Shown piece by piece: positions 2,761 through 7,670 of a stretch of 9,579 nt of DNA. The position numbers and the translations under genes are program-made. Origin of the DNA: Candidatus Woesearchaeota archaeon (GTDB taxonomy: Archaea > Nanobdellota > Nanobdellia > Woesearchaeales > GW2011-AR9); assembly GCA_016181345.1 (NCBI GenBank), contig JACOZM010000071.1:1-9579 (forward strand), written 5' to 3'. The notes beneath the pieces are model-generated. The model had not been told where the DNA came from. It did not search any database and saw only the letters and a list, made by a program, of their open reading frames with translations. The number at the start of each line of letters is the position of its first letter. Positions within the stretch are counted from its first letter, which is position 1.

Positions 2761-3552
2761 TCACTCACTGCCATAATATTTCTCTTTATAAAACTTTATC
2801 AATTGTTCTACTTCCGGGATGCATTGCTTGTTCGCGACTCCTACTTTTGTCTTCTTTTGGACTGCCTCAAACGTCGTTGCTCCTTCTAAAACTGCTTCTT
2901 CAATATCATGATCAGTCACTTTAGCGATATGATCGATCATCCTGTGTTTTTCTTCAATAACTTTTTCTTGATGCCCATGCTTGGCATAATAATCATTAAT
3001 TGCTGCTCGTAAAGCCTTATCTCCTAAAACAGAACAATGAAACTTTCTAGCCGGCAAATCGCCTAAACGTTTAACGATATCCTGTGGCTTAAGATGCATA
3101 GCTTCCTCTAAGACCATACCTTCATTTTCTGTAATCATAACAGACATCATTGATGTAGAAGCAATAGCTGAAGCACAGCCAAATGTCTGCCACTTACATT
3201 CCTTGATCCGATCATCTTTCACTTGAATCCAAATCTTCATCATATCCCCGCAAGCTGGGCTCCCTACAAAACCCATTCCATCAGAGAAATAAGTATCAGC
3301 TTCTTCTTTCGTCTTAAACAAGTTTCTGGGATTAAAGAAATGCTCCTTCACAATATCTGTATAAAACCACGATTTATTGCTGGCAGAAACGTCTCCAGCT
3401 GTCGCGTTATGATCTGAAGTGCCCTGATGAGCTTTCTCTTCATGAGTATTTCCAACTAGAGTATTTCCAACTCCCTGGCCTAAAGTACCATGTTCTGACG
3501 TAGAGCTAGATAAACCAGCTTCTTCAATTTGAATTTCTATTTCTCCTTCCAT
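2761..3552 (-). CDS. iscU: IscU-type Fe-S scaffold with N-terminal extension and decayed BFD-like domain
   Basis: Scaffold on which Fe-S clusters are assembled with sulfur from the adjacent desulfurase. The IscU domain spans about residues 62-192 and keeps all three cluster-ligand Cys: Cys101 (ACGDMMKI, with the conserved Asp103), Cys126 (FGCASAIAS) and Cys173 (HCSVLGDKA). Residues 1-60 are a low-complexity Ser/Gly/Thr/His-rich extension absent from ordinary IscU. Residues about 205-255 match the shape of the NifU central [2Fe-2S]/BFD domain (VTDHDIEEAVLEGATTFEAV), but by alignment three of its four Cys are gone and only Cys244 remains. The start is well fixed: GAGGTGAT lies 8 nt before the ATG, and the ATG is one base after the iscS stop (translational coupling). 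The next in-frame Met (93) lies inside the domain. At 263 residues it is about twice the usual IscU length. Confidence 0.92.
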   Translation of the reverse strand: MEGEIEIQIEEAGLSSSTSEHGTLGQGVGNTLVGNTHEEKAHQGTSDHNATAGDVSASNKSWFYTDIVKEHFFNPRNLFKTKEEADTYFSDGMGFVGSPACGDMMKIWIQVKDDRIKECKWQTFGCASAIASTSMMSVMITENEGMVLEEAMHLKPQDIVKRLGDLPARKFHCSVLGDKALRAAINDYYAKHGHQEKVIEEKHRMIDHIAKVTDHDIEEAVLEGATTFEAVQKKTKVGVANKQCIPEVEQLIKFYKEKYYGSE

Positions 3553-3553
3553 C

Positions 3554-4747
3554 TTAATTAATCACCTCTTCAACCGTTAAATTCACAGGAGATATCTTTC
3601 GCAGCGATTCAACCACAACGGGAAGAACATCCAATACTTTCTGAATCTCCTTTTCCGTCGTCCTTTTACCTAACGTAAATCGTAATGTTCCATGTGCAGC
3701 CTCATACGGTAAACCCATAGCTAAAATAACATGACTTGGGTCTAGACTTTGCGATGTACAAGCTGATCCCGAAGACGTGCAGATCCCATACTCATTGAGA
3801 TACAGCATCATCGCTTCTCCTTCCACATCTAAAATGGTGATATTAGCATTATTTGACAAACGTTCTTGTGGATGGCCATTTAAGAATACTTTAGGTACTC
3901 GTTCTTTAATACCTTCAACCAACATTTCTCTCAGCTGAATTAAACGTTTATTTTCTTGTTCTCGTTCCTCTTGAGCAAGTTCTAATGCTTTAGCAAAACC
4001 GACGATAAAAGAAACATTTTCTGTTCCACTCCTAAGCCTAAATTCCTGGCCCCCGCCATGAATAATCGGATGAATTTTCACCCCACTTTTCAGATAAAGC
4101 ATTCCAATCCCTTTAGGACCATAAATCTTACTCCCATTAAGTGTCATCATATCTACGCCAAGATGTTCAAGATGAATATCTAAGGCTCCTCCAGCTTGAC
4201 AAGCATCAGTATGAAAAATAACCTCTTTCTTCACGCTCTTAGCTGCCTTAACTAACTCATGGATCGGCTCAATCGTCCCTACTTCATTATTTGCATACAT
4301 AATGGAGATAAGAATCGTATTATCCTTAATTGCAGATTTTAAATCTTCAACGGAAACTCTTCCAGATCTATCAACATCTAAATACGTCACTTCAAATCCT
4401 TCGTATTTCTCTAAATAAGCGCAAGTTTCTAAAACTGCTTCATGCTCAATCTTACACGTAATAATATGATTTCCTTTAGTCTTATTCGCACGACAAAAAC
4501 CCTTGATGGCTAAATTAATGCTTTCCGTTCCTGAGCCGGTAAAAATGATTTCTTCAGCTCTTTTTGCTCCAATAAGCTTTCGTACGGTTTCTCGAGCTGA
4601 ATTAACCGCTTCCTTAGCGCGTAAGCCAATAGTATGAAAACTTCCTGGATTACCAAATTCTTCAGAGAAATATCTATCCATAACTTCTTTGACTTCTTTC
4701 CTTACATACGTTGTTGCCGCATGATCCAAATAAATTTCTATTACCAT
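3554..4747 (-). CDS. iscS: Cysteine desulfurase (IscS/NifS type)
   Basis: PLP-dependent class V aminotransferase-fold enzyme that converts L-cysteine to alanine and passes the sulfur, as a persulfide, to the Fe-S scaffold encoded next. Visible features over 397 residues: LDHAATT at 7-13; the GSGTESIN cofactor loop at 71-78; His103; Asp181 and Gln184 in FHTDACQAGG; PLP Lys207 in NGSKIYGPKG; RLRSGTEN at 237-244; and catalytic Cys330 in the mobile loop SSGSACTS. Length and motif order fit a complete enzyme. The ATG at 4747 is preceded by GTGAGGT (4758-4764) about 10 nt away. It heads the minus-strand Fe-S block and is followed after a single base by the scaffold gene. The clear SSGSACTS loop suits the IscS/NifS group rather than SufS. 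Regulation may involve the inverted repeat at 4830-4847. Confidence 0.96.
   Translation of the reverse strand: MVIEIYLDHAATTYVRKEVKEVMDRYFSEEFGNPGSFHTIGLRAKEAVNSARETVRKLIGAKRAEEIIFTGSGTESINLAIKGFCRANKTKGNHIITCKIEHEAVLETCAYLEKYEGFEVTYLDVDRSGRVSVEDLKSAIKDNTILISIMYANNEVGTIEPIHELVKAAKSVKKEVIFHTDACQAGGALDIHLEHLGVDMMTLNGSKIYGPKGIGMLYLKSGVKIHPIIHGGGQEFRLRSGTENVSFIVGFAKALELAQEEREQENKRLIQLREMLVEGIKERVPKVFLNGHPQERLSNNANITILDVEGEAMMLYLNEYGICTSSGSACTSQSLDPSHVILAMGLPYEAAHGTLRFTLGKRTTEKEIQKVLDVLPVVVESLRKISPVNLTVEEVIN
3561..3568 (-). promoter_or_regulatory. Strong Shine-Dalgarno of the IscU-type gene inside the iscS 3' end
   Basis: Minus-strand GAGGTGAT is embedded in the last codons of the desulfurase gene, 8 nt before the scaffold ATG. 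It supports tight coupling of the two genes and shows that the low-complexity N-terminal extension is translated. Confidence 0.8.
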
Positions 4748-7265: not shown

Positions 7266-7275
7266 AGCAAAATCC

Positions 7276-7283
7276 TTATAAAT
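7276..7283 (+). promoter_or_regulatory. TATA box of tRNA-Phe
   Basis: TTATAAAT lies 26-33 bp before the first base of the mature tRNA (7309), the normal archaeal TBP position if transcription starts close to the 5' end of the tRNA. Confidence 0.75.
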
Positions 7284-7328
7284 AGATATTTAATTTACCT
7301 CCTCAGTTGGGAACGTAGCTCAACCTGG

Positions 7329-7363
7329 GACTTGCCGGGCCTGAAAAGACTCGCAAACAGGAA
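7329..7363 (+). other. Putative D-loop intron of tRNA-Phe (about 34 nt)
   Basis: Extra sequence in the D-loop, with boundaries uncertain by 1-2 nt at each end. It can fold: CCTG (7324-7327) with CAGG (7358-7361), then TTGC (7332-7335) with GCAA (7353-7356), around a 17-nt loop. The unpaired GGAC and A between the helices give a relaxed bulge-helix layout rather than a textbook bulge-helix-bulge. Confidence 0.65.
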
Positions 7364-7399
7364 AGAGCACCAGACTGAAGCTCTGGGTGTTGAGGGTTC

Positions 7400-7435
7400 A
7401 AATATCTTTAAGGAAAAATTCCTTTAGGTTCGAAA
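7400..7435 (+). other. Putative T-loop intron of tRNA-Phe (about 34 nt)
   Basis: Extra sequence in the T-loop. Cutting after base 7399, 7400 or 7401 with the matching 34-nt excision gives the same mature loop TTCAAGT. The insert forms a hairpin, 7406-7415 with 7419-7428 (one U-U mismatch, AAGGAA/TTCCTT core, AAA loop). A second T-loop-like GGTTCGAA sits at its 3' end (7427-7434), so the insert partly duplicates the target sequence. Confidence 0.65.
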
Positions 7436-7450
7436 GTCCCTCCGTTCCCA

Positions 7451-7485: not shown

Positions 7486-7670
7486 GTACGTATTTAATTC
7501 TGTCAAAAATTGTGGCTTGGTCAAGGGTAAAATTCATTATGAACATCGTAAGATAGGACTAGTTGCGAGACTTTAAGCTTAAAATAGTTACTGATGCTAT
7601 CAGTTGTTAGATGAAGTCTCGCTGAATTTTACGACCTGCCACAATTTTTGTTGTGGAACTAAATACGTAC
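7486..7670. mobile_element. 185-bp foldback (MITE-like) element
   Basis: Non-coding element ending in perfect 11-bp inverted repeats, GTACGTATTTA (7486-7496) and its complement (7660-7670). Further nested arms match: 7504-7516 with 7638-7650 (13 bp), 7519-7522 with 7633-7636, 7527-7535 with 7624-7632 (9 bp) and 7565-7573 with 7614-7622 (9 bp). A small hairpin ACTGAT-GCT-ATCAGT lies near the centre (7590-7604). It is flanked by exact 8-bp direct repeats, the mark of transposition. No ORF is present, so it would be a non-autonomous element; I cannot name the parent IS family. The alternative is a structured RNA gene, since the whole element folds as one long branched hairpin. Confidence 0.7.

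Follow-up and report, generated by a model that had tools for sequence, protein, structure and literature searches.

A tRNA-Phe(GAA) gene of a Candidatus Woesearchaeota archaeon with probable bulge-helix-bulge-type introns in the D-loop and the T-loop

Non-canonical introns of archaeal tRNA genes are known at several positions, among them 20/21, 30/31, 53/54 and 59/60, and are abundant in Crenarchaeota and Nanoarchaeota, with splicing endonucleases of the alpha-2-beta-2 type in intron-rich groups (PMC4090602). The crenarchaeal endonuclease EndA is an (alpha-beta)2 enzyme that possesses a Crenarchaea-specific loop, or CSL (PMC4090602, PMC6379350), and alpha-type EndA without specificity loops has been described as narrow in its specificity (PMC6379350). 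The number of introns per tRNA gene was estimated at 0.84 for Thermoproteales and 0.21 overall across 217 archaeal genomes (PMC8450103); the word DPANN is absent from the main text of that paper. Reports of tRNA introns in Woesearchaeota were not found in the open-access literature, most subscription papers being outside this coverage, and PMC6125680 concerns group I introns in rRNA. Here we analyze a stretch of 9,579 nucleotides from a Candidatus Woesearchaeota archaeon (hereinafter the window; its own genome is denoted G000) that contains a twice interrupted gene which probably encodes a functional tRNA-Phe(GAA), with both 34-nt inserts predicted from the sequence to be removed as archaeal bulge-helix-bulge (BHB)-type introns.

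The gene occupies positions 7309..7450 of the plus strand (142 nt unspliced), with the discriminator base A at 7450 and the CCA not encoded. Alignment with an intron-tolerant tRNA-Phe profile, which was derived from 13 uninterrupted tRNA-Phe genes of relatives, divides the gene into exon 1 (7309..7329, tRNA positions 1-20), a 34-nt D-loop insert at 20/21 (7330..7363), exon 2, which carries the anticodon arm (7364..7402, positions 21-59), a 34-nt T-loop insert at 59/60 (7403..7436) and exon 3 (7437..7450, positions 60-73). By direct reading, the anticodon GAA (7377..7379) is located in an uninterrupted loop, CTGAAGC, and the stems are GGGAACG/CGTTCCC (acceptor), GCTC/GAGC (D-stem), CCAGA/TCTGG (anticodon) and GAGGG/CCCTC (T-stem); in the unspliced gene, the D-loop comprises 43 nt and the T-loop 41 nt. 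In the profile alignment, the insert-free tRNA-Phe is paired at every stem position (21 of 21 pairs), and its T-loop consensus is whole after splicing. The direct reading and the profile alignment bear out the preliminary description of this locus, which was made from the sequence alone, as a tRNA-Phe(GAA) broken in the D-loop and the T-loop, with an intact anticodon loop, perfect stems and the above loop sizes. Its proposal that removal of two inserts of about 34 nt would yield a 74-nt tRNA likewise agrees with the two 34-nt inserts delineated by the profile, which imposes the product length of 74 nt and does not impose the stem pairing. A TATA-box-like element, CTTATAAATA, is located at 7275..7284 of the plus strand, approximately 34 nt upstream of the gene, and, of the 43 genes for tRNA-Phe examined in G000 and its relatives, 24 have a TATA-like hexamer between -36 and -28.

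The profile score of positions 7309-7450 is 81.6 bits, compared with -12.1 for the best of 300 mononucleotide shuffles, and the remainder of the window scores -16.2 on the plus strand and -20.6 on the minus strand with the same profile. A covariance-model search, which had been proposed as a check of the locus, finds the gene with an E-value of 1.6e-14, a match that is not independent, the six training sequences of the tRNA-Phe model including the spliced form of this very gene. ARAGORN, run on the window with introns allowed, reported no tRNA, the Rfam search of the window detected no tRNA, and the Rfam tRNA model gave no match to the gene in its own genome at E <= 10; at E <= 0.1, this model also did not list the tRNA-Phe genes of two relatives, G013 and G033. 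Given that the gene is missed by both ARAGORN and the Rfam model, and that the latter also misses G013 and G033, genomes of this sort probably contain more tRNA genes than are counted. For the spliced tRNA-Phe, the cloverleaf is the fold of minimum energy; the optimum of the unspliced RNA (-49.3 kcal/mol) is not a cloverleaf, and the enforced cloverleaf (-47.8 kcal/mol) is costlier by 1.5 kcal/mol.

The splice motifs were assessed with a BHB test that combines a central helix (H) of 4 bp, bulges of 3 nt with the cut following their second base, and flanking helices, and compares the result with shuffles of the intron. For the D-loop insert, CCTG (7324..7327, plus strand) would pair with CAGG (7358..7361, plus strand), which gives an H of 4/4 with the bulges GG^A and AA^A (p 0.002 against shuffles), so that by this test the insert is predicted to be a BHB-type intron. 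The fold of the D-arm contains the D-stem, the CCUG/CAGG central helix, the bulges and an intron stem, its stability is ordinary (z -1.31), and, because a 2x3 internal loop takes the place of a strict bulge on the 3' side, the form is a relaxed one. For the T-loop insert, the predicted central helix consists of TTCA (7397..7400, plus strand) and CGAA (7431..7434, plus strand) with one A.C mismatch (H 3/4, p 0.090); this helix is not part of the lowest-energy fold of the T-arm (z -0.72), and the insert is predicted to be an intron of the relaxed-BHB type. The ends of both inserts coincide with the expected EndA cut points. The earlier statement that neither insert forms an obvious strict BHB is to be corrected for the D-loop insert, in which a 4-bp helix with bulges is present, though with a relaxed 3' side. 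The equal length of the two inserts, which had been singled out as odd, is likely a coincidence because insert lengths vary among relatives, from 20 to 43 nt at 20/21 and from 24 to 44 nt at 59/60. Group I introns were considered and rejected: the inserts, at only 34 nt, have no core of several hundred nucleotides, and Rfam gives no match at the locus.

The tRNA-Phe genes were compared across 60 genomes, namely G000 and 59 relatives. A pattern search for the anticodon arm, with one mismatch allowed, matched in 7 of the 60 genomes (one pattern match, L056, was discarded by eye as not a tRNA), and a tRNA-Phe covariance model (R1) was used instead, with a hit in all 60; a MAFFT alignment of the unspliced genes misplaced the introns and was kept out of the model. 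The best hits were examined in 50 genomes (all except G011, G017, G019, G022, G024, G027, G031, G047, G048 and G050), of which 43 yielded tRNA-Phe and seven yielded other tRNAs (G015, G016, G021, G030, G041, G053 and G058). The hit in G034 was extended by a single upstream base, and the genes of G037 (72 nt) and G057 (73 nt) were counted as uninterrupted and excluded from the profile. Altogether, 28 of these tRNA-Phe genes carry inserts and the remaining 15 are continuous, the interrupted share being 21 of 26 inside the family of the window and 7 of 17 outside it. These 28 genes contain 41 inserts, 17 at 37/38 and 24 elsewhere: eight at 20/21, seven at 59/60, three at 30/31, two each at 19/20 and 53/54, and one each at 18/19 and 42/43. 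At least one intron outside 37/38 is present in 19 genes, and in 11 genes the introns are exclusively outside this site. Two introns in one gene, which had been regarded as unusual, turn out to be common here, given that 12 of the 28 interrupted genes contain two or more, and the gene of G033 is interrupted three times (20/21, 37/38 and 59/60). Once the inserts are removed, with the 74-nt length imposed, every stem pair is retained in 28 of 28 interrupted genes.

The arrangement found in the window, with inserts at 20/21 and 59/60, is shared by G013, and several other genomes, e.g., G003 and G033, carry comparable inserts at the same positions that are similar yet diverged in sequence; the uninterrupted tRNA-Phe genes of relatives match the pattern of the spliced sequence of the window. 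For the secretion-type ATPase gene at 45-1712 of the window, all the named relatives at 76% identity or more are labelled Candidatus Woesearchaeota, Nanoarchaeota or 'archaeon'. Together, the spliced structure, the genes of the relatives and these named relatives support the suggestion that introns outside the anticodon loop occur in a DPANN-type archaeon, and BHB-type introns appear to have accumulated at several tRNA positions across the lineage. In the tRNA-Phe genes of G007, G010 and G023 (L150, L161 and L152, respectively), the introns at 30/31 are 19 nt long, lie inside the anticodon stem and have perfect CACT/AGTG central helices.

Across the 41 introns, H is 4/4 in 20 and at least 3/4 in 36. 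The pairing reaches p <= 0.05 against intron shuffles in 28 introns, and the 13 that do not reach this level comprise 11 introns at 37/38 and two at 59/60, that of the window and that of G044 (p 0.499); the Fisher-combined p of 2e-35 for pairing above that of shuffles is calculated over related introns that are not independent. All eight introns at 20/21 have the 4/4 central helix, and the H pair at position 16 in these introns is C-G, U-G or U-A, that is, a compensatory series. Among the seven introns at 59/60, H is 4/4 in G013, G033 and G054 and 3/4 in the other four, and the D and T arms of G013 fold into near-strict BHBs with H formed (z -2.92 and -3.18, respectively). A perfect H is found in 17 of the 24 introns outside 37/38 versus 3 of the 17 at 37/38 (Fisher p 0.0013, the introns not being independent), the junctions having been picked for the best motif among equivalent slides in the same manner for both groups. 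This distribution suggests that a plain enzyme may rely on tRNA context at the anticodon loop but need a strict helix at sites elsewhere in the tRNA.

The type of EndA encoded in the genome had been named as another point to be checked, and only one EndA gene, of the plain alpha type, was found in G000 (L020, 227 aa, one catalytic unit). Residues 57-227 of this protein align with residues 2-171 of the alpha-4 EndA of M. jannaschii (1A79) with a one-residue gap (E 3.5e-38), and the match to the alpha subunit of N. equitans (3IEY) is about as good (E 1.6e-35). Tyr163, His173 and Lys204 sit at the places of the Tyr, His and Lys residues of M. jannaschii that we take to be its catalytic triad. The enzyme would form an alpha-4 homotetramer. 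PF01974 has a match in 58 of the 60 genomes, G000 included, and the match is single in each except G017, where two overlapping pieces resemble one broken gene; G018 and G022 have no PF01974 match, and the sole addition from a protein search at E <= 1 is a doubtful stretch of 35 residues in G022. Like G000, the relatives thus appear to possess just the plain, single-gene form of the enzyme. No gene for a beta subunit was found in the 60 genomes with PF01974 and the protein search at E <= 1, the sensitivity of which to a diverged beta subunit is uncontrolled.

Of the 58 genomes that match PF01974, 30 contributed to the EndA alignment, and the CSL insertion of the A. pernix type is absent from the EndA of G000 and from the 30 aligned EndA rows; the aligned rows do not possess the 11-18-residue CSL/ASL loop with a Lys that is the mark of broad specificity. 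Near the position that aligns with the CSL, 20 of the 22 rows from the family of the window have a Lys, though within a short loop, and G004 and G013 have Arg. A link between this Lys and specificity is only an idea because G013 has the Arg and yet contains two non-canonical introns. RtcB is present in 54 of the 60 genomes, including G000, which has one, uninterrupted rtcB gene. In the proposed mechanism, the tRNA-Phe gene would be transcribed, EndA is predicted to cut out both inserts at BHB-type junctions, and the exons would then likely be sealed by the ligase RtcB.

Points against this mechanism are the weak motif of the T-loop insert, the 13 of 41 inserts with p above 0.05, the unspliced RNA's optimum that is not a cloverleaf, the relaxed 3' side and ordinary stability of the D-arm, the incompleteness of the genome, and the difficulty of reconciling a relaxed T site with a narrow alpha-type EndA. 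The weak motif would also fit a decayed pseudogene in which the inserts are debris, with an intact tRNA-Phe gene in the missing third of the genome, which is 68% complete (902,592 bases in 146 contigs). Such decay appears improbable given that the spliced form preserves every one of the 21 stem pairs as well as the T-loop consensus, the TATA-like element is retained, the inserts end at the expected EndA cut points, and the same insertion points are found in other genomes. The search for another uninterrupted tRNA-Phe gene, which had been suggested as a check, found none in G000, of which 68% is available and in which the model gave nine further hits, and in the 97%-complete G013 no second tRNA-Phe and no GAA anticodon was seen by eye among 21 other tRNA regions, several of which are not typed by ARAGORN. 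It is very improbable that the inserts are retained and the tRNA functions with expanded D- and T-loops. The anticodon arm requires no splicing, and a few unusual tRNAs have enlarged arms, but the retained inserts would disrupt the contact between the D-loop and the T-loop, the insert-free relatives show the pattern of the spliced sequence, and the junction helix of the D-intron covaries. The fragmentation and incompleteness of the genome would be compatible with inserts that are artefacts of assembly or binning, an explanation to which we assign a negligible probability, given the comparable inserts at the same positions elsewhere, alike yet diverged in G003 and G033.

A different alternative accepts the introns as real and holds that they are removed not by an alpha-4 EndA but by an enzyme that includes an additional beta-like subunit, overlooked here, of the kind present in Nanoarchaeum. 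Reviews associate enzymes of the (alpha-beta)2 or epsilon-2 type with multiple introns and with introns at non-canonical sites (PMC4090602, PMC6379350), the EndA of G000 is almost equally close to the N. equitans alpha subunit and to the M. jannaschii enzyme, and a diverged beta subunit might escape the PF01974 and protein searches, which had no positive control. Given the single-copy PF01974 match in 58 of the 60 genomes, with G017 having one broken gene, and given that the protein search added nothing for G018 and only the doubtful piece for G022, we consider a beta-like subunit unlikely, while conceding it a real chance. Removal of both inserts as BHB-type introns from a functional tRNA-Phe(GAA) is the reading that we adopt, with considerable confidence.

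Inserts are also found in other tRNA genes of G000. In the tRNA-Val(TAC) gene (L014), the D-loop is interrupted by an insert whose central helix is 4/4, and a D-loop insert was recognised by eye in tRNA-Leu (L015), where the BHB scan offered no suitable junction in the D-loop. By eye, an Ile-like tRNA (L013; G000:C129, from 1501) is interrupted after position 37 and again at 59/60, where the insert measures about 85 nt and has a TTCA/TGAA pairing, and the tRNA-Arg(TCT) of G013 (L187) has a T-loop insert of the same build. The window itself contains an imperfect palindrome of about 185 nt between the tRNA gene and the next ORF (7486-7670), with three nested inverted-repeat arms of 15, 13 and 10 nt that are 93-100% complementary, and, on the minus strand (2761-4747), adjacent genes for a NifU-like scaffold with a BFD-type domain and a class-V aminotransferase, a pair that is likely involved in iron-sulfur cluster assembly.

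In nine genomes, the rtcB gene is broken by short inserts with in-frame stops or frame breaks, located at motifs of strong conservation; the regions were chosen for stops or breaks, so that nine of the 18 fetched is not a rate, and 11 of these 18 regions were searched by tblastn. The insert follows CMPDGH in G010 (L211), G012 (L212), G025 (L213), G002 (L215), G106 (L224) and G155 (L225), and lies near GHWGY/GFP in G019 (L214), G102 (L226) and G084 (L227); a second insert is located near GFDI/NCG in G019 and G102, and slightly downstream of the first in G106. The insert of G012 forms a bulge-flanked central helix, GGTC/GACC, and CMPDGHWGYGF is regained when the insert is taken out, although an alternative junction, at the cost of three residues, outscored this one by one point. 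The insert of G025 folds like that of G012, the frame-restoring junction not being among the three listed by the scan. The junctions listed for G010, G002 and G155 do not restore the expected protein, and the BHB scan listed none for G019 and G106. The inserts of G012 and G025 look like BHB introns, and if the rtcB inserts are spliced out, maturation of the rtcB mRNA would require RtcB itself. No paper on archaeal rtcB introns was found by title in the literature search, and, in a 2009 paper, splicing of archaeal pre-mRNA was described as confirmed only for cbf5 (PMC2738675). Some order-level genomes, e.g., G113, G146, G150 and G162, have two-piece RtcB matches within one open frame of approximately 970-1005 aa; the break is near PF01139 position 50 and near a putative mRNA intron site of G019 and G102, and these two-piece matches likely reflect inteins.

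The inserts are most likely archaeal BHB introns, of a kind and at positions already known, and what sets them apart is the plain alpha-type enzyme and the lineage, for which the open-access literature searched gave no such report. Of the novelty initially attributed to the locus, the occurrence in DPANN is supported, and the insertion sites 20/21 and 59/60 are already on record for other archaea (PMC4090602). A DPANN lineage joins Thermoproteales as a place of tRNA intron spread, and diverse introns combined with a plain-looking enzyme test the accepted view that intron diversity goes together with an EndA that is heteromeric or loop-bearing; the chances that the rule requiring such an EndA is indeed broken here seem to us evenly balanced.

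The closest parallels differ in the enzyme. Several BHB or relaxed-BHB introns outside 37/38 likewise occur in Thermoproteales, e.g., in tRNA-Pro(UGG) of Pyrobaculum islandicum at 25/26 and 56/57 in addition to the canonical site (PMC4090602); unlike Crenarchaeota, the DPANN lineage analyzed here has one alpha-type EndA gene, with no CSL in the aligned rows. Nanoarchaeum equitans, with its (alpha-beta)2 EndA (3IEY), has an alpha subunit closely similar to the EndA described here and, in addition, a beta subunit, the gene for which was not found in the genomes searched. ARMAN-2 (Micrarchaeum) is likewise an ultrasmall archaeon with relaxed BHB introns (PMC6379350, PMC12397907), but its epsilon-2 EndA consists of 390 aa with three units and the ASL loop (PMC6379350), whereas the EndA of G000 consists of 227 aa with one catalytic unit and without a loop insertion. 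Introns in the D-arm and the T-arm of one gene are also described for a eukaryote, in which the same arrangement is combined with a Sen-type endonuclease (PMC4090602).
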